Shown here piece by piece: positions 2,175-20,261 of a DNA stretch of 20,261 bases. Position numbers and translations under genes: made by a program. This stretch comes from Chloroflexota bacterium. Lineage in GTDB: Bacteria; Chloroflexota; Anaerolineae; Promineifilales; Promineifilaceae. The stretch is taken from assembly GCA_020353135.1 (NCBI GenBank), contig CP070688.1, positions 3,239,741 to 3,260,001 of the forward strand, written 5' to 3'. Under the pieces are notes generated by a model. The model saw only the letters and a list, made by a program, of their open reading frames with translations. It did no database searches and was not told where the DNA came from. How positions within the stretch are numbered: position 1 is the stretch's first letter; the number at the start of each line of letters is the position of its first letter.

Positions 2175-2285
2175 TGATCGTTATGGATTAGCGCGAACAA
2201 GCGATAACGCCCGAACGGTCGCCACTTGCGTATCAAGGATGCGACCCGGAGTCACATTCTATGTTGATGGCGGACAATCCGGCCC

Positions 2286-2289
2286 GGAG
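2286..2289 (+). promoter_or_regulatory. Ribosome binding site that fixes the kinase start
   Basis: GGAG lies six bases ahead of the ATG at 2296. An in-frame ATG at 2239 would add 19 residues without kinase-like sequence and has no comparable site. Kinases of this type usually begin a few residues before the 'G..Y.I...IG.GGMG' segment, as the 2296 start does. Confidence 0.65.
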
Positions 2290-2295
2290 AAGATC

Positions 2296-5200
2296 ATGAC
2301 AAGTCTGGTCGGCCAGATTATTGGACATTATCGCATTGATAGCTTCATTGGCGATGGGGGAATGGGGACGGCTTACAAGGCCTATGATCTGAGGCTTGAA
2401 CGGCCGGTGGCCATCAAGGTAATGCACGAACATTTGGCTCGCCAGGACGAATTCCGAGCTCGATTGTCGATTGAGGCGAAGACGGCGGCGCAACTCGATC
2501 ATGCATCCATAGTCAATGTGTATGAGCTCGGTGAGCAGGGGACCGGATTGTACCTGGTTATGGAGTTTATAGGCGGTGGTAGCCTGCGCGAGCACTTGCA
2601 GCGGCTTCAAATGCGCAAGCGATTCTTGCCTATCGATCAAGGCCTGCAGATAGGGCTGCAGATCGCTGGGGCGCTTGACTATGCTCACCAGCGTGGCGTC
2701 ATACATAGGGACGTGAAGCCGGGCAACATCATACTCAAGCAGTTGGCCAGGCCCGATCGGCAGCATGAATATCCGTTCAGAGCGATCTTAACTGATTTTG
2801 GCTTGGTCAAGCTGCTCGACGGCGAGTCGATAACGAAGAGCGGGACGACGTGGGGTACTCCGGCATACATGTCACCCGAACAATGTGAAGGTCGCCAGCT
2901 TGGCGGTCGGAGCGATCTGTATTCGCTGGGCGTTGTCCTGTATGAGTTGACTACCAGTCGACTGCCATTCAAGTTTCAATCTTTATCAGAGGCGATAGCC
3001 GTGCATCGGCGGGGGCTAATGCCTAGACCGGCCGAGGAATTGCGGGGTGACGTACCTCGAGTAGTCGTTGACCTTTTGGATAAGTTGCTGGCGAAAGATC
3101 CGCGACGTCGGTTTAGCTCTGGGCAGGAGATGGCCGGGGCGCTCGCAGAAGCGTTAGAGGAAGTATGGAGGCGGCCGACCCGGGCCAGCGCACCGCTGTT
3201 TCGTGACCCGGCTGCTGAGAAGAAAAGGCGTCCGGGCAGCAATTACCAAGTACGAATCACGGCCGCCGACCGGAACGAACGCGTGGCAAAGGTCGAAGCG
3301 CCGGAAGTGACGATCGGCCGTGACGATAGCAATGATATCGTACTGCAGGATGATCGTATCTCTCGCACACATGCAAGACTCAAGTGGAACGATGGCACAT
3401 GGGTTTTGACGGATCTGGGCGGGCTGAACGGCACATGGTTAGAGGACCAACGCCTCATAGTCGGTAGGGCTGTGTCGCTTACCCTGGGCGCTGCTTTTCG
3501 TATAGGACCGTACTTACTACGCCTGGAGTTGGCTGACCCGGCAAGCGACTCGCAGGCCGGTTTCACAGATGATGAAGATACCCATCTGCCAGGGGCAGAC
3601 AAGATCGAGCCACTGCGAGTGGTGCTCGAACGCGAACAATCAAAAGTCATTCCAGGCCACGAATCGCAATTAAGAGTTGAGATCGTTAACAGCGGTTCAA
3701 TGACCGACAGAGTAAGCTTGCGGGTTAAGGGTGTGCCCGATAGGTGGGTTCGACTACCTCTGGCTGATACACAAATCGGACCCGGGCAGCACATCGAACT
3801 ACCGATAGTCTGGAAGCTACCTCGCAGGAATGGCATCCCGGTAGGAAGGCAACGATTCCGAGTGGAGGTAATCTCGCAGAGGTACCAGGGACTTATTCCG
3901 GCGGTCAGCGGCAGCTTATCCATTGAACCGTTCGAGGTACTCACTGTATCAATGAATCCACGGACGCTGGTCCTGCCCGGGCACGTGCAACTAGAGATCG
4001 GCAACCAGGGCAACGCGACGGCCGAAGTCAGCGTAGTTGGCCACGATAGCCAGAATGAGATCCGGTATGATGGTGAGAGCGGTCATACGCCACTTAAACC
4101 GGCCCAATCAACGCAGATTGGCATAGAGATGAAGGCCCGCAAACGTACTCTCTTCGGGGAACCTGAGTTCATAGATTTCTCAGTCATAGTCGGATCCAGG
4201 CGCGGAAGCAGGCGAGAGATCACCGGGCGGGCAGAAAGCAGGCCCTATGTGCCGACCGGTATCGTGTATTTGGCTGCATTCGTGCTTGTATTCCTCTGTG
4301 TCATCTTGACATTCATGTTGCTCATCCCGTTTGACCGTTCAAATCAAGATTTGACTTCGACGGTAGAGAACGCACTTAACTCTACACGCCAGGCGCAAGC
4401 CGGCCCTGTCGGGACGCCAACATTACCGGCGGTTGTGGAGACAACTCCGGCCGCTACTGCGACACCGCCAGTCATTGTTGATAGCGACGGCGATAGACTC
4501 AACGACGATCAAGAACTGTCACTTGGAACGAACCCGGAGAGTCCCGACACTGACGGAGATGGATTGTCTGATGGCGATGAGGCCTTGACGCGGGCGACCG
4601 ATCCGTTGAATAAGGACACTGACAACGATATTCTGTCGGACGGCGATGAGGTTAATCTGTACGGAACGAGTCCCCTAATGGCAGATACTGACGGCGATGG
4701 CGTGAATGATGGTGTTGAAGCCGCGTCACAAACCGACCCGCTAGACGCACTTGATCCACTGCCGACCGATACGCCGACCCTGGTATTGCCCACCAACACG
4801 CCAACTCCGGTGCCGCCGACGGCCACCCCGACGTCAACCCCAACCAACACGCCGACGGCTACACCAACAGCAACCGCGACTGAAAGTCCGACGGAAACGT
4901 CCACGGTCACGGTAACGCCGACGGCCACGGCCACTGGCCCACCCGCGGCAACTTCGACGGTGGCCACGGGCTTTGAGCTTGGTTGCAGCAGCGCACTGCC
5001 GAACCTGGACGGCGTTGTCTTGTCCGAGGAGTGGGGCAACACGCCAATGGTTTCTTTTACAGCTGGGGCTGACGCGTCCTGGCTCGTGAGTGGGTACATG
5101 AACTGGGTGGCAGATCAGTTGTTCATGGCTTTTGTCGTCGACGACGATCAGACTGGGGACAGCGAATCGCTTTCACTCTTCATCGACGCTGATGGAAGCG

Positions 5201-5538
5201 GTGGAGATATCGGCGCCGAGGATAGGGCGTACCGGATCGGCCGGGATGGACGCCTTAGCACGGGCGTTTGGGTCAATTCCAGAACAGACGGTTCAATGTG
5301 GAACTGGGTAGAAGTGAATGAAAACTGGGTGGCGCAAAGTGGCGACGGCCCGGACGGACAGTGGATGCTGGAACTGAGGATGAATGCGGCGCTTGATGCG
5401 CCTGGGTTGCTTGCCGGAAACCCATTTGGCCTCATGATTAGCCTGGGTGACGACGACAGCCAGGGTCTATGGCCAGAGGGCGGGCAGACTCAGGAACCGG
5501 ACACCTGGCAGGCTATAAGCAATGATTTGTGCAACTGA
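2296..5538 (+). CDS. Transmembrane Ser/Thr protein kinase with FHA domain, TSP3 repeats and CBM9-like sensor
   Basis: This 1080-aa protein is a bacterial Hanks-type kinase of composite build. Kinase domain (about 11-285): glycine loop GDGGMG (19-24), VAIK with K41, HRDVKPGN with D139, DFG (167-169), YMSPEQ (191-196). FHA domain (about 330-410): [10 protein letters not shown]356-R-T-H359 and LNGTW (377-381), the phosphothreonine-binding pattern. Residues 440-650 look like beta-sandwich (NEW/Ig-like) domains. One TM helix lies at about 656-677. Outside are DxDGDGxxD type-3 thrombospondin/calcium repeats (728-812), a Thr/Pro-rich linker (about 813-890) and a C-terminal domain (894-1080) with the look of CBM9/DOMON-like ligand-binding domains. 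Likely role: sensing an extracellular ligand, possibly carbohydrate, and signalling by phosphorylation inside. The ligand assignment is inference; the kinase and FHA calls are firm. It converges on the WS/DGAT gene 36 bp away. Confidence 0.9.
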
Positions 5539-7307: not shown

Positions 7308-7778
7308 GTGTCGGAGAAGACTCTTGCTATGCTCGTTCTCGAAGGGCAGAAAGTGCCGTACCACGCGAACCACTACCCATCCTCGCTGCGCGATGCTGAA
7401 GAAATCGCTCATGAAATTGGGGTTGAACCAGGAAGGGTATTCAAGACGCTAGTAGTGACGCGGCCGGCTGGAAAGCCGTTCTTGGTCATGTTGGCTGCGG
7501 ACAGGCAGCTTGACCTGAAGAGAATGGCCAAAGCGGTTGGCGAGAAGAAGGTGAAAATGGCCAGCCAGCGCGAGGCCGAGAAGATAACCGGCTTGCAAGT
7601 GGGTGGCATATCTGCGTTGGCGCTTTTGAATCGTGGATTCGCCGCATGCCTGGACAGCGATGCGAGGAAGTTCAAAAGGATCCATATTAGCGCCGGCAAA
7701 CGCGGGGTTCAACTGGAAGTACCCGTGGACGACCTAATTCGAATTACATCCTCCCGCCTCATGTCTGTGTCGCGCTAA
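7308..7778 (+). CDS. ybaK: YbaK/EbsC-type Cys-tRNA(Pro) deacylase
   Basis: YbaK proteins hydrolyse cysteine mischarged onto tRNA(Pro) by prolyl-tRNA synthetase. The 156-aa length fits stand-alone family members. Family features are the VPY..H.YPSSLRDAEEIAHEIGV N-terminal region, VFKTLVV with the key lysine K46, a GKPFLVMLAADRQLDLK strand pair, GLQVGGISAL (the conserved GxxxGGxSPxG-like loop, here without the Pro), and ISAGKRGVQLEVPVDDL at the end. The GTG at 7308 has AGAGGT eight bases upstream. The gene is divergent from the WS/DGAT gene and its stop codon overlaps that of the convergent peptidase gene (7775-7778). Confidence 0.92.
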   Translation: MSEKTLAMLVLEGQKVPYHANHYPSSLRDAEEIAHEIGVEPGRVFKTLVVTRPAGKPFLVMLAADRQLDLKRMAKAVGEKKVKMASQREAEKITGLQVGGISALALLNRGFAACLDSDARKFKRIHISAGKRGVQLEVPVDDLIRITSSRLMSVSR

Positions 7779-10700
7779 GGCTTGCCTCGGGCCACGACCG
7801 GCAAGTGGCTCGTATGTGGTCTAGCCTCCAGAAGCGTATCGAGGATAACAGGATCGGTCACGCCGTCTTCGACGATCGCTGTCGCCGGCAGCCAGGCGGG
7901 CCTGACCGCGAACGGCGCCTTCATGACCACGGTGACGGTAACTGCCTCTCCGGGCTGGAGCCAGCCTTGCCAATCCAACTGGCTATCTGTCAACATCACT
8001 TCTCCCCGTGGTGCATGAGCCGTATCGGTAATTGGTGTAAGAGATTCAGGCAATTTCACCCTGGCATCTAGCAATCCTGCCGTATGTCCCTGATTAAACA
8101 ACTCGAGTTCGTATGTTACCAACTGACCTGGGGCCGCTATGCCAGGAGTTACCAGCATTCGCGATGCGGTGGGATCTGGCGCCTCTAGCCAGAACGGCAC
8201 AGCGCGTTCGAGGAGCAAATCGTGGTCGTCATAATGAATCTGTACCGAGTTTTCGATTCGCGCACCGGGCGACAGGCCTTGCCGCGCAACTGCCTTATAT
8301 GTGATCTGGTGCTGTTGGCCAGGATCCAGATGGCCGCGCCAGGTAAGCTGATGTCGATCCGGGTCATAATCGATGCCTTCGCTAATTGTCGCCAAATCGA
8401 CGTTCAGGCTAAAAGGCAGTGAGTTCGTTACAGCTACCATGCTGCCGGGTCCGGCCGAAGAGTAGCGAAGCGTCAGCGTGAACGTCCGCAGGTCAGAAAC
8501 GAGCCCTGATCGACGGTCAACTTGGAAGGAGGACTCGCCCAGATCGCTCAGCCAACCAAGAATTCGATTCATCGACTTGGCTTGACTCACAACGGGCAAG
8601 GTCTCAAATGGTAGCCCCCAAAATACCGTGCGCCAGTCAGAACCGGAATTGGCGACCCCGGCCGCATAACCCTGATCGTGCCATAGCGATACGAGGGTTC
8701 CCGGAGCGGGTACTAGACCATCGCTATAGTTATTGTAAGGGTCATATTCCAAACTTAGTGGGCCAACCAATTCGGCGAATGGCGAATCGTACGCGCCGCC
8801 GTAGGCGACTGTAGGCGTCACCGTTTCGGCGTAATCTACAACGCCCAGGTAGTCCCGGGTAAAGGCGTCTGACTGATGGTAATAGAGATAGTCTTGGCTC
8901 GTCAGAAACAATCGTCCACCTTGTTCGGCGTAGGCGGAAAGGGCTTCACTCTCTTCGGCCGTGATCGGCCTGAACCAGTCGTAGCCGGTATACCACACGA
9001 CGAAGTCATAGGCGCTGAGTAAATCCAGGGGAGGACTGGCGGGCGCGATGGCTCTGGATTCAATCTCCCAGAAGTCAAAATCCAGGTCGGCCGCGCTCAT
9101 CGCTTCTTTAAATTCGGGAGCTTGATCGTACCAGCGGTCGTCGTCGACCATCAATATGCTCCCAGGTGTCTCCAACCGAATCTCAAGCGTGCGCTCATAT
9201 TCGGGGAAGTTCAGCGAGGAAGCAACTAGTCTGAGAATCTCCAAGCTGTCTGGTGGCGCGTCCTCGGGGATATCGATTTCCAGCGCAGTCGAGCCACTCT
9301 GACAAGGCCCTAGCTCCATCGTGTCCGTGATGATCTTGGCTGACCAGGCCGGCTCTGCAAATTCCAACCTGATCGTGTCAGTCAACGTTTCGCTGAGATT
9401 AACAACCTGGATCGGATAGCTGCGGCGGCCGCCTGGCGGTACGAAATCTTCAATAATCGGCCGATCGAAATGAACACCGACGGTGGATTCCGGTTGGTCA
9501 AAATAATCAAGTGTTCTGGCGATCAAGTCGGCGCGCTTCACAGAGTCCCTGACATTCTGTAGCCCAAAACCGAAGTGAGCGAGGTGAAATGGATTGCATT
9601 GATCGGCGAGGAGAACAGCTGCAGTCCCGTCAGCGTACCTCAGACCGATCTGCGTAAGCGCCCCAGGGCGGGGAAGACTGGCATCAGGTGCCATTTCCGC
9701 GCCGTCTTCGCTCGTATCTTCAAGCACAAGCTGCAAATCCTCAAAAACCGATCCCACCTCGCCGGCGAGCTCAAAAGGCGCTTCAGCCTTGCCAAGATAT
9801 AGACCGCGCAGCTGAGTGTGCCACCATTGTTGGAAATGAGCCCAGTTCTGGTCGATGACGGCTGTATTCTGCCCGGCGACCAGGACATTGCCGCCATCGG
9901 CAAGGTACTCTGTAAGAGCACCGCCAGCATCTATCGTTCCTGGCGAATCTTCCGGCGCTGACCAGATGATCACCTCATATTGGGACAACAACTCTACTGT
10001 CGGCCGGTCCAGGAAAGGATTTCTTACTGATAGCGTGGAGAAAGAGAAGTCGTTGTCCCGCAAAGCCGTAGCATAGATCTCCTCCTGGCTATTACCGTAC
10101 CATTGGCCGCTGTCGATCAACAGGATTCTAGGCGCCGACGGCAACAGAAAATCATGGACCAGGTCCTCATCGGCGGAGAGAGTGACGCTGAAGCGGCCTA
10201 GACGATGACCGCCGACCCAGGCTACCAGCTCATATTGACCGGCCGGTAGTTCGGCCTCATAGCGCCCATCGGCGCCAACAGGAATTGCCTGAGGTCCTTT
10301 GTCAACCCGAATTTCACCTGACAAGGGTAAGCCAGTTTCGAGATCCAGCAATTGGCCGGTTATCTTTCCGTGTGGTAGGCGCATCAGGATTACGCTAAGT
10401 TCAGTTTCGCTGCCGTAATTTATCGTGACATCCTGGTTGACATAGGTTTCATAGCCGAAGGCGGCGATTTCGACACGATAGGTCCCTGATATCAATTCGG
10501 CTACGAATGAGCCGTCACTGTCAAAGGTGAAGCCAAGCTCAATATCAGCGGGCGTCGTTATGGTGATGGCTGTGCCAGGCAGAGGCGCAGCACCTTGCAC
10601 GACGCCATGCAACCGCCCGGCGACCACAATCGACGAAAGCGACGCGTACGCGTCAACTTGCCCCCAGCCGTAGTCATCGTTTGGCAGGACACGAGCAGGT

Positions 10701-12160
10701 CGGGTGGCGGTAGCGGTTAATACTCGTGTGGCCTGAGCTGGGCTAAGCTGGTCATCGGCCGAAAGCAGCAGAGCATATAGGCCGGCAACGTGAGGCGCCG
10801 ACATAGATGTGCCATTCTTGTGTCCGTATTGGCCACCTGGTAAGGATGAGAATATCTGCATGCCTGGAGCAACAACCGTGGGCTTAACCTGGCTGGTCCA
10901 ATTCGATGGCCCACGGGAAGAGAACCATGCGACTTGGTCGATGTCGTCTGAAGCTCCGACGGCGACGACGCCCGGATAATTGGCCGGTGACCTGATACTG
11001 CCTGTTGCAGGGCCGCTATTGCCGGCCGAGAAAACGGTGATGATGCCGGCCGCGTGCAGAGCGTCGACATCAGGGAAAAAGTCTTCCAGTTCCGGGTCGG
11101 CGGACCAGGATCCGTTGACGACGTTTGGACCTGATGAGGGATCGCCGCCCGGGGCGAGTAGCCACTGGAATCCAGCGTGGATATCGCCAAGATATCCATA
11201 ACCGCGCTCGTCGAGGACACGCACTGCCATCCACTTGCTTCCTGGCGCCACACCAATTCCATTCCGGCCACTGGCTGTGCCGGCGACATGCGTACCGTGG
11301 CCATTCGGATCGAACGGCTCCGGTGCGCCATCAATGGCGTCGAACCAACTTGAATCGGGGGTAGGTGACGCCACATCGGTGGCGCCGCGGTAGCTACCTT
11401 TCAGGGCAGGGTGAAGCCAATCAACGCCAGTATCCATAATGGCCACTGTCACGCCCGTTCCGGTAATATCAAGTCCGGCCCAGACGTGACTCACCCTGGT
11501 GCGCTCCAGGCTCCAGGGAAGCCCAGCCGGAATCTCGGCCAGGCTGCTCTCCGTCGACGTGACTGGGCTTAACAACTGAATCTTAGAATCCGGGCCTACG
11601 CGAGCGACGTCGCCGCGGCCGGCCAGGGTGGCGATGGCTGGCGCTGTCGCCGAAACTTGCAGTGCATTTATGATCCACAAAGAGCGATAGGAGCTAACTT
11701 GGCCGTCGGCTTCATGGCGCTGCAACTCTCTCACAATAGCCTGTTGCGATTCTGAGGTGCCTTTCTGCAAGGTTTCAGCTACCGCGGTGCGTCTCTCGAT
11801 GCCGGCCTCGGGTAGGTCGGCGAGATTATCGTGGGCAGTGTCCTGCATGTAGATGATGACCCGAAATAGCTCATCCTCGTCTGTGAGTTGCATTGCTGTA
11901 GCTAGTGGTGGATCGATCTTTGCCGATATGCGGGCCGGTCGAGCGGCCGAAGACGTGTGGTAGTCAACCAGAAATGCAACTAGGCCGAGCGTGCAGATGC
12001 TCAACAAGAGTATACCCAGCAACACGCCGAACCGGGTCCTTGAATTGGGTTCCTTGAACTCTTTGCCGGAACCCAGCGACAAGACCAACAGACGTTCCGT
12101 CGACGGCTCTTCGGTTTGCTGATTCCTGCCGGTTTTGATGCGCAATTCTTTGCCTTTCAT
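7775..12160 (-). CDS. Large membrane-anchored or secreted subtilisin-like (S8) serine peptidase
   Basis: This 1461-aa protein has a hydrophobic segment at about 44-65 after a 43-residue polar N-terminus (signal anchor or long signal peptide). An I9-like propeptide region (about 96-197) comes next. The S8 catalytic domain (about 230-505) shows D243 (AIMDTGVD), H288 (NGHGTHVAG), oxyanion N381 (SAGNSGP) and S452 (NGTSMSAPHVAG). It continues with two carboxypeptidase-regulatory-like beta domains (about 515-673), two ThuA/glutamine-amidotransferase-like folds starting RILLIDSG (678) and SILMVDDDRWY (1001), and two DUF11-like beta domains (about 1206-1445). It ends TSHLPVVARGKP, resembling a C-terminal LP-x-V motif often seen in exported Chloroflexota proteins. 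The catalytic call is firm; later domain calls rest on pattern and are softer. The ATG is the only plausible Met; its GGGAG is unusually close. An extended -10 promoter lies about 28 bases upstream. Confidence 0.9.
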   Translation of the reverse strand: MKGKELRIKTGRNQQTEEPSTERLLVLSLGSGKEFKEPNSRTRFGVLLGILLLSICTLGLVAFLVDYHTSSAARPARISAKIDPPLATAMQLTDEDELFRVIIYMQDTAHDNLADLPEAGIERRTAVAETLQKGTSESQQAIVRELQRHEADGQVSSYRSLWIINALQVSATAPAIATLAGRGDVARVGPDSKIQLLSPVTSTESSLAEIPAGLPWSLERTRVSHVWAGLDITGTGVTVAIMDTGVDWLHPALKGSYRGATDVASPTPDSSWFDAIDGAPEPFDPNGHGTHVAGTASGRNGIGVAPGSKWMAVRVLDERGYGYLGDIHAGFQWLLAPGGDPSSGPNVVNGSWSADPELEDFFPDVDALHAAGIITVFSAGNSGPATGSIRSPANYPGVVAVGASDDIDQVAWFSSRGPSNWTSQVKPTVVAPGMQIFSSLPGGQYGHKNGTSMSAPHVAGLYALLLSADDQLSPAQATRVLTATATRPARVLPNDDYGWGQVDAYASLSSIVVAGRLHGVVQGAAPLPGTAITITTPADIELGFTFDSDGSFVAELISGTYRVEIAAFGYETYVNQDVTINYGSETELSVILMRLPHGKITGQLLDLETGLPLSGEIRVDKGPQAIPVGADGRYEAELPAGQYELVAWVGGHRLGRFSVTLSADEDLVHDFLLPSAPRILLIDSGQWYGNSQEEIYATALRDNDFSFSTLSVRNPFLDRPTVELLSQYEVIIWSAPEDSPGTIDAGGALTEYLADGGNVLVAGQNTAVIDQNWAHFQQWWHTQLRGLYLGKAEAPFELAGEVGSVFEDLQLVLEDTSEDGAEMAPDASLPRPGALTQIGLRYADGTAAVLLADQCNPFHLAHFGFGLQNVRDSVKRADLIARTLDYFDQPESTVGVHFDRPIIEDFVPPGGRRSYPIQVVNLSETLTDTIRLEFAEPAWSAKIITDTMELGPCQSGSTALEIDIPEDAPPDSLEILRLVASSLNFPEYERTLEIRLETPGSILMVDDDRWYDQAPEFKEAMSAADLDFDFWEIESRAIAPASPPLDLLSAYDFVVWYTGYDWFRPITAEESEALSAYAEQGGRLFLTSQDYLYYHQSDAFTRDYLGVVDYAETVTPTVAYGGAYDSPFAELVGPLSLEYDPYNNYSDGLVPAPGTLVSLWHDQGYAAGVANSGSDWRTVFWGLPFETLPVVSQAKSMNRILGWLSDLGESSFQVDRRSGLVSDLRTFTLTLRYSSAGPGSMVAVTNSLPFSLNVDLATISEGIDYDPDRHQLTWRGHLDPGQQHQITYKAVARQGLSPGARIENSVQIHYDDHDLLLERAVPFWLEAPDPTASRMLVTPGIAAPGQLVTYELELFNQGHTAGLLDARVKLPESLTPITDTAHAPRGEVMLTDSQLDWQGWLQPGEAVTVTVVMKAPFAVRPAWLPATAIVEDGVTDPVILDTLLEARPHTSHLPVVARGKP

Positions 12161-12883: not shown

Positions 12884-13615
12884 TTACTCCCGACGCACGG
12901 CATTGATGAGAAATAGAGGCAAATGGGCAATGTGCTGCCAGCCAGCCAGATTGGCGGCCGCTTCTTCGGCAGCGGTCAAGACGGCCGCTTCCTCCGGTTC
13001 CAAAGGTAGCTCGCGCAACATCTCGAACCGAAGAGGGGAAGGCGGCTGTAACTGGTCCAGAAGACGGACGTTGACTTCGAAGCCCTGCGTTTCGAGCAAT
13101 CGCGGCAGCCGCCGGCCGACGTCACAAGTGGCGCCGCAGCGATTCAAGGCCGCGCGCCAGATTTCGGCCATGGCGACCTCTGGAGGATATTCTATCAGCC
13201 CGAAATAATCGGGTTCGATCGCGCAGAATTCCCCACCTGATCTAAGTGTGCGCCATATTTCGCCAATAACGCGGGCCAAATCGCCAACCCACAACATAGT
13301 AAACTGGCTGAAGATCAGCTCAAAGCTCTTGCCAGGGAAAGGCATCTCTTTCGCATCACCTACTATACGAATCGCAGAAGACGATAATGGGATTTCGTGT
13401 AGAGCTTGCTGTGACAGATCCATAGTTACAGGCAAGCCGCCGCCGCGGCGGGCGAGCTCGGGGGTAACAGCTCCGCTGCCGGCTCCTAAATCCAGGATAC
13501 TCTGTCGACGGGCAATGGCCGCGCGCCGTAACAGGCCGGCGCGAGCCGGCGCCAGCCAACCAGCCTGGCTCTTGAGCAGAGTGGCCGATGGCAGCGAGGG
13601 AGAACTTGTAGACAT
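12884..13615 (-). CDS. Class I SAM-dependent methyltransferase
   Basis: The 243-aa protein is a Methyltransf_11-type Rossmann methyltransferase. Motif I is ILDLGAGSGAVTPELA (40-55), the ribose-binding acidic residue is D66 (VTMDLS), and the motif III/IV region reads GDAKEMPFPGKSFELIFSQF, typical of small-molecule or peptide O/N/C-methyltransferases. The substrate is not evident. It lies 76 bp after the Cys-Ala tail protein gene and 33 bp ahead of the small membrane protein gene on the same strand. Co-expression with the radical SAM genes is likely, but a shared pathway is inference. The ATG start lacks a strong ribosome site. Confidence 0.87.
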   Translation of the reverse strand: MSTSSPSLPSATLLKSQAGWLAPARAGLLRRAAIARRQSILDLGAGSGAVTPELARRGGGLPVTMDLSQQALHEIPLSSSAIRIVGDAKEMPFPGKSFELIFSQFTMLWVGDLARVIGEIWRTLRSGGEFCAIEPDYFGLIEYPPEVAMAEIWRAALNRCGATCDVGRRLPRLLETQGFEVNVRLLDQLQPPSPLRFEMLRELPLEPEEAAVLTAAEEAAANLAGWQHIAHLPLFLINAVRRE

Positions 13616-13691: not shown

Positions 13692-15599
13692 CTAGCGGCC
13701 GCCGCCAGCACAGGCGCAGGCACATGCACAGCCGGCGCAAGCGCAGGCGCAACCGCCGCCCGAACTGCCGCCGCCGCCGGACGATGTGGTCAATGCTTTG
13801 AAGATATCGCCAGTGACTTTGTCGGCGCCGCTGAGATTGACCATGCCCGCTGGAGCTTCTACTTGCAAGATGTCCGGCGATATGGCCGAGGCCATGCTGC
13901 CCATGGTGTTTTCGGTCCATCCGGCAAACGAAGCGGCCACGTCGCCGAATGAGGTCCGGCCGCCCGGTGATGCAGGAGATGACTTGCCTGGGCCGGCCGG
14001 GATTCCTAACCGATCACTGCTGGCAAAAGGACGCACCCAGATCGGCCGGTAATGGTAGCGTCTGGTGGTCAGTATCGTCGGGTACGCTTCGTCAAGAAGC
14101 AGCCACTGCAAATGGCGGTCGACGTAGCGCTCTAGTTCGGGCACGTCGCCAATGGACTGGGCCTGACTCATGGCCCGGGCGATGATCTTTCGATAATACT
14201 CTTGTGTGTCTGAGAGATCGAAGCCCTTCATCCGCCTGGCGGTGTGCTCAATCAGCGCCTTCATGGGTTCGCTCAAATCCAGCTTGTGAACAGGTTTTCC
14301 AGGGCTTTCTTCAATGCGGTCGATGAAGGCATGCTCGTAGCTCCGCAGCACGATTCCCAGACGCTGAGCGACGGCGAGCCGGTGTGCACGGCGTTTCTTG
14401 CGGCTCATTTTAGCCGCCTCATATTCGGGTCTCACCTCGACCGTTAACGGCGAATCTTGGACCTGAGCGACGACGCTCTTTTCAAGCAGGCCGAAAATGA
14501 TCAGCATAAGGACTTTGTTCAGCGGCAGCTCCAACAGGATAGCCGCCTCGGGCGCGGTCAAACCTCGCTTTATGCCGCCCCCTTCAACCTGGGCAATTGC
14601 CGGCAGATAGCGTCTCTTTCGGCGAGAGATGTACGTTTCGTTCAATGCAAACAGCACAATGCTCGCCGGCAAGACCAGCAGGATTGAAGCCGGCTGGACC
14701 ACCAAAACGGCCACAATGCCGATGGCCAGAATGACGAAGACAGAAATCCCGGTGCCGCCAGAAAAGCGGAAAAAGGCGATCGCCATGAGCAGCAGAATGG
14801 CGCCAGCCAGGAAGAAAGTGATTCCTGGATGATCTTCGAACCACTTGTTGGTCAAGTCGAGCAAGCTTTGGGCGATGACCCGGCTCATACCCCGCTGCGG
14901 AAACGAAACGCCAACCGGGAACGTCCCGGACGGTTGTACGTTTTCCCACTGCCACACTGCGACCGGATGCTCCTCAAAGATGACCTTGTTGGTAAACGGT
15001 ACATCCTGGAAGAGGACTTCTTCGGGAAGTATATCGGGCAGCATGTGGACCAGGATCCAGACATTGCCGTTGCCGGTCAAGAATTGCTGGTCAAACCAGG
15101 TTGTGCCGATTTGCAGGGAGGCGTAGTCATCGCGCGTCGTGTCCTGGTAAACCATGTCAGGCATTGTCGCTTCGAAGTGGATCGTTCCGGTTCTGCCCTG
15201 ACCGATGGCCCGGTCGTGCAAATGGATCTCGACGCCGTCCTCCACGTACTCAGAAACCCGGATATCATCTAGAGTCGCCCCGTCAATTGAAGCGCTCATG
15301 TTGGTGAAGTCGAATCCACCATGGGGCAAGCCAATGTCGACGATGTCGATAAGGCCGCCTTCGTTCTCGAATGTGATGTCGTAGACGATTCTGGCTGAGG
15401 CATCAGGCAACACAAAGACCTGCATTCGCAACTCAGGAACATTGAAGCGATAGGACTGGGCAGCATCGATCGGCCCAACAGCCACCAGCAAAAGAATGAG
15501 GGCAAGGAGTAGCACTCCGAACCGGCTGGCGGCGAAGTGCTGTAGCGAGCGGCGATATGACTGATCGGCTTTTACAAAGCTCATAATAGTTAGCCTCAT
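13692..15599 (-). CDS. DUF2207-like membrane protein with C-terminal Cys-Ala repeat tail
   Basis: The 635-aa protein has a signal peptide or TM segment (about 27-47, cleavage possible after PIDA), an extracellular beta-rich domain (48-250), three further hydrophobic helices (about 259-278, 286-302, 303-320) and a cytoplasmic part. That part has a winged-helix-like stretch (GLTAPEAAILLELPLNKVLMLIIFGLLEK, quoted only in part by its positions 346-373), the layout of DUF2207 predicted membrane proteins. It ends in a Gly/Ser stretch and CACACAGCACACACAGGGR (617-635). These seven Cys are the only ones in the protein. The topology puts the tail in the cytoplasm. The start ATG overlaps the stop of the upstream radical SAM-like gene (ATGA); a second ATG at 15584 with GAGG upstream is an alternative start. 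I propose it as the substrate of the neighbouring radical SAM proteins; DUF2207 itself has no established function. Confidence 0.85.
   Translation of the reverse strand: MRLTIMSFVKADQSYRRSLQHFAASRFGVLLLALILLLVAVGPIDAAQSYRFNVPELRMQVFVLPDASARIVYDITFENEGGLIDIVDIGLPHGGFDFTNMSASIDGATLDDIRVSEYVEDGVEIHLHDRAIGQGRTGTIHFEATMPDMVYQDTTRDDYASLQIGTTWFDQQFLTGNGNVWILVHMLPDILPEEVLFQDVPFTNKVIFEEHPVAVWQWENVQPSGTFPVGVSFPQRGMSRVIAQSLLDLTNKWFEDHPGITFFLAGAILLLMAIAFFRFSGGTGISVFVILAIGIVAVLVVQPASILLVLPASIVLFALNETYISRRKRRYLPAIAQVEGGGIKRGLTAPEAAILLELPLNKVLMLIIFGLLEKSVVAQVQDSPLTVEVRPEYEAAKMSRKKRRAHRLAVAQRLGIVLRSYEHAFIDRIEESPGKPVHKLDLSEPMKALIEHTARRMKGFDLSDTQEYYRKIIARAMSQAQSIGDVPELERYVDRHLQWLLLDEAYPTILTTRRYHYRPIWVRPFASSDRLGIPAGPGKSSPASPGGRTSFGDVAASFAGWTENTMGSMASAISPDILQVEAPAGMVNLSGADKVTGDIFKALTTSSGGGGSSGGGCACACAGCACACACAGGGR
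13695..13751 (-). repeat. Coding repeat for the alternating Cys-Ala tail
   Basis: The 57 bases before the stop codon encode (Cys-Ala)3-Gly-(Cys-Ala)4-Gly-Gly-Gly-Arg. Cys codons alternate between TGC and TGT, and Ala codons between GCC, GCT and GCA. The DNA is therefore not an exact tandem repeat, and the pattern seems kept at the protein level. A Gly/Ser-rich linker (13752-13784) precedes it. Confidence 0.9.
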
Positions 15600-16912
15600 G
15601 CGTTCAGCGCCCAGCCGGCCGGTTCACGCGGACAGTCAGCCGCACAAATAATCAATCCAGGACATTCCTCGCAGCGGGTGGGTCGCTCGACGCGCTCGCG
15701 ATATCTGACGAAAGCCTGATTGGCCCAAATCCTATCCCAATCGCCCTGTAGGAGATTTCCGGCGGCGACGTTGGGGCCCCGAGGCGAGATGATGTCGCCA
15801 TTCGGCTCCACACGAATCGAGACGTCGGCCGTACAACGTGGACCAAGCTGTACCTGTTCGGCGATGGTCAGGGCCGGGTCGCGCTGCACTGGCGGCTGCC
15901 AGATAAAGCGAACGTTCATTTCGGCCGCCGTTTCTTCGACCAGGTCGGCTATCTGGGGCAGGGCTGAAGCCAGCAGGGCGTCGGATCGCTGATCGGCCGC
16001 CATGTCATTTTCGGCGACTATGACCAGGAAATTTGTGTTACCGACTCCGATCTGTTGAAGCAGATCAAGTGTCGATTCCAAGCCGGCAATCGTGCTGCCA
16101 ACCAAAGGCACCTCTGCCACCGGCGCGATTTCGTTGGCCTGGATCGACTCAAACAAAGGAATTGATAGGTCATGGTCGCCAGAACCGCAGAGCGAGTCGT
16201 GCGTCTCGGCGTCGGCAGCGGCAAAGATCAGACAGCAGTGATCCAGACCGGCCATGGCCATGTTCTCCAGAAGTGCGGGCCGGTTCAGATCGGTGGCCCG
16301 GCCGCGCACACCGGCGATCATGCCCAAGTCTTCAGCCCTCTCAATGGCTCGGACCAGCGTATCGGGATCAACCTCGGCTTGGGCCAGGAATGTCACATGG
16401 GGAATAGCCGCCCGCCACAGATGGTCCAAGATATCAACTATGTCTGACGTTGGCGAAACGACTACATCGGCCTGGAATGGGGCCATCAATGTCGCATCGT
16501 AGGGCGATATTGCCGCATCTTCAAGATTCATCACCGGATAGTTGTCGCCGGGCGCGACCAGGGTCGCGATCATGGCCGCGACCCGCTCAAGATCGGCTTC
16601 CATTGTTTCCTGAGTTGCTCCGTGGAAGGAACTTTTGAGCTCAGCGATTATTGTCTGCTCGTCAAGGTCGTCGAGCAGGCCCTTGGCGATCACGACTCCA
16701 GCCGGCGATAGGTGCAAGGCAGCGCTGGCATTGGCCAATAGCAGGCCCGAGCCGCCAGGATCGACGCGCAGATGGAATCTGGTGTAGGCGCCGTCGGAAT
16801 ATTCCTCCTCACCGGAAGAACGCATGTAGTGATACAGGCCTGCCTTGACCGGATCAGGCGGCACAGGGCGGGTCGGGTAGAATAGTCTTGTTAGCAAATC
16901 GCTCTTGCTCAT
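15596..16912 (-). CDS. Degenerate radical SAM/SPASM paralogue lacking the CX3CX2C motif
   Basis: The 438-aa protein aligns by eye with the upstream radical SAM enzyme along its whole length. Both share a PqqD-like N-terminal region (here about 24-97, with 'HLRVDPGGSGLLL' and 'LHLSPAG'), the 'APF.AD' strand that leads into the radical SAM barrel (144-150), 'IPHVTFL' (170-176), 'AGLDH' (221-225), and a SPASM-like end (C360, VEPNGDI, AAGNLL, C414-x2-C417, C423-x3-C427). Where the active paralogue has CNNACGHC, this one has VVSPTSDI, and the GGE motif is gone too; two SPASM Cys are replaced by Arg. It should not bind the radical SAM [4Fe-4S] cluster, so it is probably a non-catalytic partner that binds substrate or scaffolds. 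ATGA overlaps link it to both neighbours. The start has GAGGA six bases upstream. Confidence 0.85.
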   Translation of the reverse strand: MSKSDLLTRLFYPTRPVPPDPVKAGLYHYMRSSGEEEYSDGAYTRFHLRVDPGGSGLLLANASAALHLSPAGVVIAKGLLDDLDEQTIIAELKSSFHGATQETMEADLERVAAMIATLVAPGDNYPVMNLEDAAISPYDATLMAPFQADVVVSPTSDIVDILDHLWRAAIPHVTFLAQAEVDPDTLVRAIERAEDLGMIAGVRGRATDLNRPALLENMAMAGLDHCCLIFAAADAETHDSLCGSGDHDLSIPLFESIQANEIAPVAEVPLVGSTIAGLESTLDLLQQIGVGNTNFLVIVAENDMAADQRSDALLASALPQIADLVEETAAEMNVRFIWQPPVQRDPALTIAEQVQLGPRCTADVSIRVEPNGDIISPRGPNVAAGNLLQGDWDRIWANQAFVRYRERVERPTRCEECPGLIICAADCPREPAGWALNA

Positions 16913-18522
16913 TGAGAATCCTCAGACGCTGCCATATTCTTGATATCGCCGAGATTCACCAGGCTCAACCAACCGCCGCGGCCGCGCGTGCTACCGTTCG
17001 CCGAACCGGGAGACGGTACATATCCAAAGCTTTCTCCAATACGCGATGGTCCATTTCCGGCGCAACTGCCCGAACAGCTGGCCGCAACAGGCGCGACATG
17101 ATCGGCGTCGGCCAGCCCAAGATGCGCTTCGCGCTCCAGCCGGCAGCCGCCGCCGCACAAAGGTAGATCTGGGCATGACCAACACTTCTCTGGCAAACCA
17201 GTTCCACGCGGGTCCGCGTTCCGATCGCGAAACGAACGAAACAGCGCGCCCTGCCAGATTGACGACCAGGGATCGGTCAGAATATTCCCAGCGGCGGCAT
17301 AGTACGATTGACATGGCAGAACATCGCCATTTGGTTCGACGCAAATTGAATACTCGGCGGCGTTGCATCGCTTGGCGCCAAGATCAAGTTCGACGGGCGA
17401 CATACGGCAATACTCAGTCGGCGTATACCAGAGGAATCGCATGCCCAGGTTGGCAGCTTGATCGCGAATGCGAATCAGCATGGGCGGCATTTCGGACTCA
17501 GGGATTGCGTTCGGATCAAACAGTCCGCCACCAGAATAGATCATGCCATTCATGGCGAAAGTGCGCAGGCCAAGATCGAACAGGAAGTCGAGAATCTCGT
17601 CGGTATGATCCTTGTTGCAGCGCATGAGGGTTGTGTTGGTAATGCAATGAACGCCCGACGCCAGGGCATTTCTAATACCGCGCACGGTCTGGTCGAAACT
17701 TCGAGCATTCATGATCGCATCGTGTACTTCAGGGCGGTTTGAACCCAACGTGACTTGGACATGATTTAAACCGGCGTCGGCAAGGGCGCCCATGTAGGGG
17801 TCCTTGGCGATTCGCCGGCCGTTGGTATTCAGGCCGGTCACCAGGCCTAGCGAGTCCGCATAGCGTATCAGTTCGGGCAAGTCCGGGTGGAGCGTCGCTT
17901 CGCCGCCCGTGAATATGATGTGGGGCACGCCCAGGCCATGTAGACGGCCAAGCACTTGGCGCCACTCCTTCGTGGTGAGCGACGGCATGGAAAAACGTTC
18001 AGGTTCGTTGTAGCAATGGCCGCAGGCGTTATTGCAGCCGTAGGTGAGGGCCAGATCCGCTTTGTAAGGGGCCAGGGCTGGAACGCTAAAGAGAGGTGCG
18101 TTTTCCAGGGCCGTCAGAGCGCAGGTCGGGCATTCTCCGCCAGGGACACGGAGCCGATCGATCATGCTGTAGATGGCCTGGAGGTCTTGTTTCAGGCGCT
18201 TACGCTCAGAAGGGCCAATGCGCGGCAGAAGTCGCGCCTGAGCTTGATCTAGAGGGGTATTGTCGAGCGCAAGTTTGGCCATTTCGGCGGCCGTCTCATT
18301 AAGGTGGATAACGTCAGTCACGTCGACGAAGAGCACGCCCCGGCCGTCGTCGTCGATGCGCAGGTGTATTCGACGTCGGTCTCCGTCGCTGCCAAATCGG
18401 TAGGTAAACAAACCTGTTTCGGGCACCCGTGCGCCTTCGGCGAGACTCATGAAGCCGGTCAGATCCTGGTGCAGCGACCGCATAATCTGGCGGCCGGCCC
18501 CGGCAATCGTATCGATCACCAT
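16909..18522 (-). CDS. Radical SAM/SPASM enzyme with PqqD-like N-terminal region
   Basis: The 537-aa protein has an N-terminal region (about 36-98) resembling PqqD/RRE peptide-recognition domains, a CPTC pair (131-134), then the radical SAM core with C163-x3-C167-x2-C170, GGE (206-208) and NTNG (232-235). Its SPASM domain has Cys at 386, 394, 404, 447, 450, 456 and 460, enough for auxiliary Fe-S clusters. SPASM enzymes mature ribosomal peptides, pyrroloquinoline quinone and quinohemoprotein subunits by radical chemistry. A 75-residue extension carries C483-x3-C487 and is Gly/Ser rich. The start has GAGGAG at good spacing and overlaps the zinc-ribbon gene by 7 bp; the stop overlaps the paralogue start as ATGA. 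The likely target is the Cys-Ala tail protein encoded two genes downstream; this is inference from context. Confidence 0.93.
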   Translation of the reverse strand: MVIDTIAGAGRQIMRSLHQDLTGFMSLAEGARVPETGLFTYRFGSDGDRRRIHLRIDDDGRGVLFVDVTDVIHLNETAAEMAKLALDNTPLDQAQARLLPRIGPSERKRLKQDLQAIYSMIDRLRVPGGECPTCALTALENAPLFSVPALAPYKADLALTYGCNNACGHCYNEPERFSMPSLTTKEWRQVLGRLHGLGVPHIIFTGGEATLHPDLPELIRYADSLGLVTGLNTNGRRIAKDPYMGALADAGLNHVQVTLGSNRPEVHDAIMNARSFDQTVRGIRNALASGVHCITNTTLMRCNKDHTDEILDFLFDLGLRTFAMNGMIYSGGGLFDPNAIPESEMPPMLIRIRDQAANLGMRFLWYTPTEYCRMSPVELDLGAKRCNAAEYSICVEPNGDVLPCQSYYAAAGNILTDPWSSIWQGALFRSFRDRNADPRGTGLPEKCWSCPDLPLCGGGCRLEREAHLGLADADHVAPVAASCSGSCAGNGPSRIGESFGYVPSPGSANGSTRGRGGWLSLVNLGDIKNMAASEDSQ

Positions 18523-18857
18523 TTTGGCTCCTCCTCAAATTGATAGGTCGCGCCACAATGGCCGCACTCAACGAAAATGGCGCCAGCCTTTACCTCGATC
18601 TCTTCTTTGCTCAGCGGCGCATTGCAGGACCGGCAACGAATCTCTTCAATGTCGACGTCACCGCTGAGATCGATCTTTTGAATGGTGGTCGTCTGGCTTG
18701 GTCGGGCCTGGACACGAGTCAAGTAGACTATGGCGATTGCGGCAAAGATGAGGAAGGCTCCGACCACTAATCTAAGAACCTGTCCTTGGTTTCCGGCGAG
18801 GAAGACAAGTCCCAGGAGTCCTACAAAGGAGGCGATGAGGTAGGCCACAGCTTTCAC
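18516..18857 (-). CDS. Two-TM protein with C-terminal zinc ribbon
   Basis: The 113-aa protein has two hydrophobic helices (about 4-21 and 27-47) and a cytoplasmic C-terminal part with C75-x2-C78 and C98-x2-C101, a classical zinc-ribbon or rubredoxin-like spacing. It starts with GTG, supported by GGAGG just upstream. It is the first gene of the operon, and its end overlaps the radical SAM start by 7 bp, suggesting translational coupling. A role as membrane anchor, metal carrier or scaffold for the modification enzymes is possible, but I recognise no specific family. Confidence 0.8.
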   Translation of the reverse strand: MKAVAYLIASFVGLLGLVFLAGNQGQVLRLVVGAFLIFAAIAIVYLTRVQARPSQTTTIQKIDLSGDVDIEEIRCRSCNAPLSKEEIEVKAGAIFVECGHCGATYQFEEEPKW

Positions 18858-19089: not shown

Positions 19090-20261
19090 TCAGCCTGAAT
19101 CGACAGTTGCGAACTTCAAGATCCGGCTGTTATTGGCGTCAGCCACGTACAGATTGCCTTGACCATCGGCAGCAAGGCCATTTGGCAGACCAAAACCGTC
19201 GGCGTCCGGGCTATACCGGCCGAATCGACCAAGATATTGACCTTCGAGGTCGAAGGTCAGCACGCGGAAGGCCTCGGGGTCGGTTACGTAGATACGGCCA
19301 TTCTCGTCGATAGCGATATAGGGCTTGTTGTTGATAGAGTCCCCAGACCAGGCATCGACGGGCCACTCGGCGACCGGCTGCAGAAAGGCATCTAGCTGCT
19401 GTATACGGCCGTTCCAGGTATCCACGACGAAAATCGAACCGTCGTCAGCAGCAGCGATGCCGACCGGTTCGAAGAACTGACCGGGCGAGGCGCCATTGCC
19501 GCCCACAGCCCGGATGAAGTTACCGTCAGAGTCAAACAGCTGGAGGCGGTGATTGCCGGTGTCGGTTACCAGCAGGTTGCCGTCAGCTAGAATGAGGATG
19601 TCGCGCGGCCCGAAAAATAGGCCACCACCAGATTCGGGCGATTCGGGCGAGCCGCTCTCGCCTATAGTCTCGAGCCACTGGCCTTCATGAGTAAACTTCT
19701 GTAGTCGATGGTTCCAGGTATCGGCCACGTAGACATGTTCGTCGTCAACGGCGACGCTCCAAGGCTCGTTGAACTGACCTGGTCCGTCGCCGAATTCACC
19801 CCAGGAGCGCAAGTAGCGGCCGTCGGCGTCGAAGACCTGAATGCGATGGTTGCCCGCGTCGGCGATGTAGAGCGTATTATCAGGGCCGACCGCTACATTT
19901 CGAGGCAACGTCAACTGTCCTTCCTCCGTGCCGGGGCGGCCGATCATGGTGTCAGGCTGAAATGGGCGCTCGCCCTCAGCGTACGGATCGACTGGCGGCT
20001 CAGAGGCAATAGCGTCGACGCCGTGATCCCAGATATTGGCCAGGGTATCTTTTCGGATGTACATGCGCAAGTCGTGTCGCGGCTGCCATTGACCACTTGA
20101 GAAGTCGCCTCCGAAGACCTGGCCATACTTCTGATAGTCGCGATAGAAGAAGATGTCCCACAACGCCTGTCTAACCTCGGGATTGCCTATGCCGCGGCGG
20201 AACTCAGGATCGGCTTCGGGATCGCCTAGCACGGAATTCCAGTTGAAGTTGCGATAGGCTT
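19090..20261 (-). CDS. NHL-repeat six-bladed beta-propeller protein, 5' end outside the window
   Basis: The frame is open to the right edge, so the first residues are missing; about 390 residues are seen. Six NHL-type repeats fill the C-terminal two thirds, each with the pattern 'P.(G/S)(I/V)AV....(I/L)YVAD..N(H/S)RIQ.F...G', enough for one closed propeller, which usually serves protein or ligand binding. The part ahead of the propeller (including ALWDIFFYRDYQKYGQVFGG and RHDLRMYIRKDTL) is not NHL. It reminds me of the C-terminal region of large glycosyltransferase-39/Agl23-like (TIGR03663) membrane proteins of Chloroflexota, so the full protein may be a membrane glycosyltransferase fused to a propeller. 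That is uncertain from memory alone. A GTG at 20232 exists, but the open frame upstream with similar character argues against it as the start. Confidence 0.85.
   Translation of the reverse strand, partial: AYRNFNWNSVLGDPEADPEFRRGIGNPEVRQALWDIFFYRDYQKYGQVFGGDFSSGQWQPRHDLRMYIRKDTLANIWDHGVDAIASEPPVDPYAEGERPFQPDTMIGRPGTEEGQLTLPRNVAVGPDNTLYIADAGNHRIQVFDADGRYLRSWGEFGDGPGQFNEPWSVAVDDEHVYVADTWNHRLQKFTHEGQWLETIGESGSPESPESGGGLFFGPRDILILADGNLLVTDTGNHRLQLFDSDGNFIRAVGGNGASPGQFFEPVGIAAADDGSIFVVDTWNGRIQQLDAFLQPVAEWPVDAWSGDSINNKPYIAIDENGRIYVTDPEAFRVLTFDLEGQYLGRFGRYSPDADGFGLPNGLAADGQGNLYVADANNSRILKFATVDSG

Follow-up and report, generated by a model that had tools for sequence, protein, structure and literature searches.

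A cassette that pairs a radical S-adenosylmethionine (SAM) enzyme with a membrane protein ending in a Cys-Ala repeat was found in a Chloroflexota bacterium (GCA_020353135.1, contig CP070688.1). The whole stretch of DNA analysed, hereafter the window, has 20,261 nt and spans positions 3,239,741-3,260,001. The four genes of the cassette encode a zinc-ribbon protein (ZNR), a radical SAM/SPASM enzyme (RSAM), an RSAM-like protein without the cluster motif (PSEUDO) and a membrane protein (MEM). The open reading frame (ORF) listing confirmed the places of these genes on the minus strand and their overlaps of 7, 4 and 4 bp, as given in the original prediction; the 4-bp overlap of PSEUDO and MEM hinges on the start codon, the database copy P0001 beginning 5 codons later. 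The tail quoted there was also recovered exactly at the end of MEM.

The MEM tail is very likely the substrate of RSAM, because it is under selection as a peptide, co-occurs exclusively with one RSAM subfamily and is exchanged together with the enzyme in related systems. The original prediction had proposed the tail as a radical SAM substrate; co-occurrence and the pairing of tail and enzyme speak for this; the modification itself and its thioether nature are proposals, and the function of the tail is a guess. Taken as a whole, the system probably provides a modified Cys tail that is anchored in the membrane, lies in the cytoplasm and is not excised, in the manner of a ribosomally synthesized and post-translationally modified peptide (RiPP). 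The support for this reading is genomic throughout.

The Cys-Ala tail and its association with RSAM

Homologues of MEM were collected at E <= 1e-3 (889 among 7,994 scored candidates), and the best 120 of the 889 were examined. The sequence ends in CACACAGCACACACAGGGR in 104 of them and in CACAGCACACACAGGGR in 14, that is, 118/120 show (CA)2-3-G-(CA)4-GGGR; of the remaining two, P0041 is frameshifted at its end and P0099 stops within the tail. In an alignment of 58 sequences no part of MEM is as conserved as the tail, whose mean modal-residue frequency is 0.97. The corresponding values are 0.21 for the N-terminus, 0.68 for the ectodomain, 0.55 for the transmembrane (TM) region, 0.65 for the cytosolic domain, 0.39 for a variable linker, 0.72 for the pre-tail segment and 0.70 for the Gly/Ser linker.

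At DNA level, 47 sources were compared: the window, 32 group-1 loci and 14 group-2 loci, which are described below. They contain 49 tails, each with a DNA sequence of its own, which encode 6 protein forms. Among the 23 tails of the window's form, third-position identity is 0.39 and all six Arg codons occur at the last residue. Excluding the window, the 48 intact tails follow the pattern (CA)n-G-(CA)m-GGGR, with (n,m) of (3,4) in 22, (2,4) in 11, (4,3) in 11, (5,3) in two, and (2,3) and (3,3) in one each. The tail is thus under strong selection as a peptide.

Genomes were scanned with the back-translated tail pattern. A MEM-led scan of named genomes gave 32 loci in 31 genomes, assigned to Anaerolineae/Chloroflexi, Planctomycetota, Pirellulales, Armatimonadetes, candidate division WS1, Zipacnadia, Sumerlaeota and unplaced bacteria. 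The tail pattern was found in all 31 of these MEM-bearing genomes (34 matches), in 20/301 Chloroflexota genomes and in 1/199 Planctomycetota genomes, the latter being the centre genome of that scan. A reversed-pattern control gave 0 matches in all three scans. Chance or a low-complexity DNA repeat is ruled out by this control together with the 49 DNA sequences for 6 protein forms. A general tag on many proteins is likewise ruled out for the scanned genomes, as the ORF that carries the tail is MEM in 30/30 located matches; the four remaining of the 34 (G001, and the second match of G002, G009 and G022) equal in number the tails in MEM of L001, L002, L009 and L022. In 19 further Chloroflexota tail genomes, the tail lies within a MEM homologue in 19/19.

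Two partial MEM matches among the 301 genomes, in G231 and G286, end without a tail, which argues against its universal presence. The first (L176, G231:C13:303230-303892) is a stretch like the MEM ectodomain inside a long ORF whose beginning reads as a Ser/Thr kinase and whose end resembles an FGE-sulfatase domain, according to domains assigned by eye. The second (L177, G286:C47:38889-39530) is a MEM-like protein of 236 aa with TM and cytosolic regions and neither ectodomain nor tail. In G263 (C87, L172/L175) the MEM gene is split over two reading frames in the assembly, the second of which carries the tail intact.

RSAM homologues at E <= 1e-50 were found in 21/301 Chloroflexota genomes: the 20 tail genomes, with type-A enzymes scoring 378-764 bits, and G167 (201 bits), which has a paralogous enzyme of type B alone. 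With the MEM profile at E <= 1e-10, the same 20 genomes and G167 were found. The original prediction had proposed a search for such tails with a check of co-occurrence, and held that tails common in genomes without a radical SAM enzyme would count against it; the proposal withstands this check, the tail and type-A RSAM sharing the same 20/301 genomes (Fisher p = 1.2e-31, ignoring shared ancestry). These counts cover the tail, RSAM and MEM. In the phylum scans no more than 4 to 7 candidates were scored for each genome, and weak relatives of RSAM may therefore escape; G006, the Chloroflexota centre, and G015 belong to their scans by construction, and many of the scanned genomes are drafts.

A second type of tail accompanies the type-B enzymes. 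In Chloroflexota, type-B RSAMs (L096-L101, 201-243 bits) adjoin a MEM homologue with CHSA and CVHDA tail units in 6/6 loci. Seven Planctomycetota relatives of RSAM (174-196 bits) have an adjacent ORF with a CHSA-repeat tail in 7/7 loci, that of L102 being only a contig-edge fragment. The type-B profile matched 10/199 Planctomycetota genomes, namely G015, which is of type A, and nine more; the tail is adjacent in 8/9, and the ninth locus, in G364, begins at a contig edge. In Chloroflexota the same profile found only the 20 tail genomes and G167. MEM proteins of types A and B are homologous in profile comparison (prob. 99.3, 432 columns), and five genomes carry both types (G003, G007, G008, G011 and G042). 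A tree of 40 RSAM rows separates type A (30) from type B (10) with support 100/100, and the split follows the type of tail. A list of 21 type-B homologues contains six with the full tail, one with a short tail, two cut inside the tail and 12 with none, several of them marked partial; P0131 in this list ends in a zinc-ribbon-like sequence.

This pairing bears on the reading that the tail is an unmodified Cys array which binds metal (Zn, Cu(I) or Fe-S) or senses redox state, RSAM and PSEUDO acting on another substrate of the same pathway. Seven Cys in 15 residues of a 19-residue peptide, or the Cys, His and Asp of type-B tails, could bind metal unmodified, and ZNR itself is likely to do so; however, an unmodified array would explain neither the joint presence of tail and type-A RSAM in those 20 genomes nor the tracking of RSAM clade by tail type, and we regard it as unlikely. 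Nor did another substrate recur: a separate small precursor peptide was rejected, since among 611 ORFs of 25-100 aa that lie up to 4 kb from the type-A cassettes (47 sources) one family recurs in 4 or more loci, being found at 7 and antisense over ZNR in the rows listed, in a search that shorter, more distant or fast-changing peptides could escape.

The membrane protein, the enzymes and the proposed modification

MEM shows no match to any Pfam or NCBIfam family at E <= 0.1. It had been called DUF2207-like, which holds for its ectodomain in profile-profile comparison (prob. 96.6, 199 columns) and fails for Pfam PF09972 itself, with no match at that threshold (gathering 24.4 bits). Type-B MEM compares with DUF2207 over 327 columns (prob. 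98.9), and its PF09972 score, 15.1 bits, is below gathering, as are those of type B' (16.6 and 19.5 bits). These two profile comparisons with DUF2207 are single-pair hhalign runs, with E-values that carry no database correction. Membership of TIGR04222 was rejected, since the A, A2, B and B' proteins have no NCBIfam match at E <= 0.1; against the cut-off of 43 bits, the type-B MEM of G042 reached 25.2 bits in a genome scan, and an hhalign comparison with TIGR04222 gave a probability of 6.5. In the AlphaFold2 (AF2) model the ectodomain is beta-rich, with a weak likeness to the M1 aminopeptidase N-domain and Ost1. Foldseek with this model matched only the ectodomain, to sheets of these kinds (query TM-scores 0.19-0.24, 50 rows shown), and no function is assigned from such scores.

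Topology was assessed from hydropathy and the AF2 model, and both support, with some ambiguity, the earlier claim that the tail is cytoplasmic, which we consider highly probable. The model shows an N-terminal helix and three TM helices, which place the C-terminus inside, as does the one clear TM segment beyond the N-terminal one in group-2 MEM; residues 328-348, after the last TM helix, include 5 K/R and 1 D/E. An external tail would follow the precedent of TIGR04222 proteins, whose Cys-rich tails are predicted to be periplasmic in passages of PMC12452194. The MEM tail would likewise work outside the membrane if a further hydrophobic stretch, at residues 354-381 (324-351 in type B), were a misjudged TM helix. 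Against this stand the helix count, the charge bias and the stretch itself, which group 2 does not show at the same hydropathy threshold and which the model builds as a helix inside an alpha/beta domain. On the basis of the model we assign this stretch to the folded cytosolic domain, and an external tail seems improbable.

The radical SAM/SPASM enzyme of the original prediction was confirmed as intact, with 93.6 bits for Radical_SAM and 40.7 bits for SPASM, both above the Pfam cut-offs. In the RSAM alignment (36 rows) the CxxxCxxC motif (C163, C167 and C170) is invariant, as are C372, C386, C404, C447, C450, C456 and C460, and Pfam SPASM was found in 36/36 rows. Against solved structures the RSAM profile scores 123 bits with SkfB, 114 with PqqE, 72 with SuiB (covering profile positions 31-455) and 56 with CteB. 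None of the best 25 of 60 NCBIfam matches reaches its curated cut-off, the top one being PqqE with 111.4 of 381.35 bits. Several group-1 RSAMs (those of the window, L006, L010, L013, L017 and L018) carry a low-complexity, Gly/Ser-rich extension of 50-77 residues after SPASM with up to 4 Cys, whereas in L014, L015 and L016 it is short and contains no Cys; a Cys-bearing extension is a possible self-substrate or relay.

PSEUDO lacks CxxxCxxC in 36/36 aligned rows, in agreement with the original prediction; part of the SPASM Cys is retained in group 1 and lost in group 2. PqqD-like N-termini had been described on both paralogues, and this stands for the RSAM family: PqqD scores 15.4 bits in the window RSAM, under the 23.4 cut-off, is found at E <= 0.01 in 20/36 rows and reaches 42.1 bits in a type-B row. 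It is weaker for PSEUDO, with no Pfam PqqD match at E <= 0.1, 14.2 of 70 bits with the NCBIfam PqqD-type model, and 15.4 bits in a group-2 relative. The PSEUDO model has N-terminal strands and helices in the layout of a RiPP recognition element (RRE); the alignments to SkfB and SuiB begin at residues 28-44, and the fold comparison barely probes the region before 121. Against PDB sequences the PSEUDO profile found nothing at E <= 0.01, and the match is at fold level only, with SkfB, SuiB, CteB (5wgg/5why) and the anaerobic sulfatase-maturating enzyme anSME among the matches. In ZNR four Cys are present in 30/30 aligned rows, and its zinc ribbon would lie on the cytosolic side.

The following mechanism is proposed. 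The beta ectodomain of MEM would face outwards, and the C-terminal domain, the flexible Gly/Ser linker and the tail would reach into the cytoplasm. RSAM would recognize MEM, perhaps through the conserved segment before the linker; PSEUDO, which is catalytically dead, would probably serve as the second subunit of the enzyme, although this role is a guess. The radical chemistry of RSAM would act on the tail, most likely by forming links from Cys sulphur to carbon, of the sactionine type and possibly from Cys to Ala, and the cross-links would run along a hairpin that turns at the central Gly. As guesses, the membrane-bound ZNR may hold the enzymes at the membrane and the modified tail may bind metal or sense redox state. 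The product would probably stay attached, like a RiPP core that is not excised, because no protease recurs among the neighbouring genes.

Thioether cross-linking is our first guess for the modification because of the kin of the enzyme and because Cys is common to all tails; it has a little less than an even chance. Ala can serve as acceptor for RumC1, and the radical SAM enzyme QhpD makes thioethers in a protein subunit, QhpC, according to the sections of PMC8172795 on these enzymes. RSAM might modify the tail otherwise, by epimerizing the alternating Ala into a D/L strand, by oxidizing Cys as in anaerobic sulfatase maturation or by forming C-C links, and this is a serious, if somewhat less probable, alternative. 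The strict Cys-Ala alternation fits a chemistry with a two-residue repeat, and type-B tails are without it; the SPASM group spans many reactions, and anSME is among the fold matches of PSEUDO. PqqE and SuiB make C-C bonds. On the other hand SkfB and CteB, which rank among the closest solved relatives of the enzyme, form thioethers (for CteB, from the title of 5wgg/5why).

Several points weigh against a modified, membrane-tethered tail made by RSAM. The system is known from genomes alone. RSAM scores similarly against the heme enzymes NirJ2 and AhbD and against PqqE, and a non-peptide substrate is therefore possible. AlbA did not accept Ala as acceptor in the subtilosin variants covered by passages of PMC8172795. 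The hydrophobic stretch at 354-381 bears on the side of the membrane. An RSAM homologue was found in 28/31 of the MEM-found genomes and not in the draft assemblies G004, G020 and G024. Ten group-1 loci show PSEUDO-MEM without RSAM in the available sequence; three are at contig edges (L019, L024 and L028), and seven with 3-8 kb upstream (L003, L004, L005, L007, L008, L011 and L027) have no RSAM beside MEM, although six of their genomes carry RSAM elsewhere. Neither the surroundings of L094 nor the six type-B loci of Chloroflexota showed a PSEUDO gene, which is thus not always needed.

Gene order and neighbouring genes

The features of the window are collected in Table 1. In group 1 (32 loci) the order ZNR-RSAM-PSEUDO-MEM was found in 16, and PSEUDO adjoins MEM in 27/32. 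In group 2 (14 loci) the order is ZNR-MEM-RSAM-PSEUDO in 13, L094 showing MEM and RSAM only. The same genes kept in a different order are good evidence that the cassette is a functional set. L002, L009 and L022 have two tandem MEM genes, each with a tail.

Table 1. Features of the cassette in the window
Feature	Position (nt)	Strand	Description and basis
ZNR	18516-18857	minus	113 aa; two hydrophobic segments (3-21, 27-45) and C-terminal CxxC...CxxC zinc ribbon ending EEPKW
RSAM	16909-18522	minus	537 aa; radical SAM/SPASM with N-terminal RRE (PqqD-like) region; Pfam, alignment of 36 rows
PSEUDO	15596-16912	minus	438 aa; RSAM-like without CxxxCxxC; radical-SAM-type barrel, N-terminal domain of RRE-like layout
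MEM	13692-15599	minus	635 aa; N-terminal helix (putative signal), beta ectodomain, three TM helices, cytosolic domain, pre-tail, Gly/Ser linker, Cys-Ala tail
MEM ectodomain, residues 47-245	14865-15461	minus	AF2, Foldseek, DUF2207 profile match
MEM helices 258-280, 285-301, 303-327 (TM in model)	14619-14828	minus	AF2 and hydropathy
MEM pre-tail segment, residues 547-606	13782-13961	minus	mean modal frequency 0.72; candidate leader-like recognition segment
Gly/Ser linker, MEM residues 607-616	13752-13781	minus	translated sequence and alignment conservation
Tail CACACAGCACACACAGGGR, MEM residues 617-635	13695-13751	minus	proposed modification target
MT	12884-13615	minus	class I SAM methyltransferase; Methyltransf_11 58.4 bits (Pfam)

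A methyltransferase gene (MT) starts 76 bp past MEM on the same strand. It was absent from the original gene set, yet is often part of the cassette, with a relative downstream in 23/32 group-1 and 12/14 group-2 loci; in group 2 the scores are only 43-80 bits, so some may be generic methyltransferases. When ORFs of at least 60 aa from the 47 sources were clustered, only MEM, RSAM/PSEUDO, MT, ZNR and one gene like an ABC-transporter ATPase (4/47 sources) recurred in both groups at >= 4 sources, and no peptidase recurred in both type-A groups. These neighbours bear on the reading that the tail is a carrier, with Cys residues to which a cofactor or small molecule made by RSAM, PSEUDO and MT is attached. 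RSAM does resemble the cofactor-making PqqE, AhbD, NirJ2 and mycofactocin maturase, and a methyltransferase is often nearby; however, no attachment enzyme recurs among the neighbours, and MT is missing despite room in five loci (L015, L019, L022, L027 and L030), which leaves little probability for a carrier.

Other genes were noted around the cassettes. In the window, an NHL-repeat beta-propeller protein (19090-20259, NHL 156.3 bits) lies upstream, and a terminator-like stretch was seen by eye between its gene and ZNR on the same strand. On the cassette strand, an ORF of 1461 aa (7775-12160) that lies two genes downstream from MT reads as a subtilisin-like protease, and positions 2239-5538 hold a 1099-aa Ser/Thr kinase-like ORF with an apparent FHA region and a Thr/Pro-rich stretch, as read from the ORF listing. 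The group-2 loci L087-L095 contain genes for a signal peptidase I-like and a dual-specificity-phosphatase-like protein (both by eye), a PAS-domain protein and a Peptidase_Mx-like (metallopeptidase-like) lipoprotein, in 3-5 loci each, which may be plain synteny of related genomes. In 5/6 Chloroflexota type-B loci a coiled-coil-like protein accompanies a protein of ZNR layout, with two hydrophobic segments and a zinc ribbon; L100 shows the coiled-coil-like protein only, in the clustered sequence. The Planctomycetota type-B' loci L103 (8389-9486) and L107 (5997-6986) have a hydrophobic protein of 330-366 aa beside RSAM with no meaningful family match.

Relation to known systems

The gene set was not found described in the open-licence literature, a search that left subscription papers and preprints outside, and no curated family match above cut-off was found among those shown for RSAM or MEM. 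TIGR04347, named as a pseudo-SAM/SPASM family, denotes by its NCBIfam name, the only basis of the comparison, an inactive RSAM-like protein; RSAM scores 101.4 of the required 525 bits with it, and PSEUDO has no match at E <= 0.1.

The solved peptide maturases SkfB, CteB, SuiB and PqqE share with RSAM the radical SAM domain, a SPASM/twitch domain and an N-terminal RRE. They differ in acting on short precursor peptides, whereas the candidate substrate here is the tail of a 635-aa membrane protein, and the cassette, unlike known SPASM peptide maturases, includes a dead paralogue and a TM zinc ribbon. QhpD and QhpC resemble the proposed pair of RSAM and MEM in that the substrate is a protein rather than a peptide (PMC8172795, in the passages on this system); however, QhpC is an enzyme subunit, whereas the tail of MEM is a disordered repeat attached to a membrane protein.

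DUF2207 (PF09972) is homologous to the ectodomain of type-A MEM and, in type B, to the ectodomain, the TM region and part of the cytosolic region, with Gly/Ser-rich ends in both. Six ordinary DUF2207 matches (L109-L114) were found in 20 genomes; the ends of five, L109-L113, were read and are Gly/Ser tails without Cys. Gly-rich ends may be ancestral, and the Cys tails may have been acquired later, each with an enzyme of its own. A DUF2207 deletion has been studied in Streptococcus mutans (PMC10457818).

By analogy, the closest relative in kind is the pair of TIGR04222 membrane proteins and multinuclear non-heme iron oxidative enzymes (MNIO, DUF692), which are proposed to modify the Cys-rich ends of these proteins. 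In the relevant sections of PMC12452194, the TIGR04222 proteins, like MEM, are multi-TM proteins with a low-complexity Cys tail and a linked peptide-modifying metalloenzyme, and modification of the tail is proposed on the full-length protein. The pair differs in that MNIO is not a radical SAM enzyme, the tails are of GCGGG type (L115, L116) and predicted periplasmic, and the linkage is looser, 490/1372 TIGR04222 genomes being reported there without MNIO.

The tail of MEM is near-invariant across Chloroflexota, Planctomycetota, Sumerlaeota and candidate division WS1, and is matched there to one enzyme subfamily. Tentatively, and with slightly less than even confidence, we suggest a general class of tail-maturation systems, in which the Cys-repeat tails of a DUF2207-related superfamily are interchangeable and every kind of tail has a matching radical SAM/SPASM enzyme, which turns it into a cross-linked cytoplasmic peptide, permanently tethered to the membrane, as a metal or redox device. 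If this is true, the pairs of MNIO and TIGR04222 would represent the same principle in a parallel branch that uses a different enzyme. The tail offers a testable substrate, a 19-residue peptide of known sequence with seven Cys. Most known cases of radical SAM maturation concern small peptides; if the proposal is true, this chemistry would extend to lasting parts of membrane proteins.

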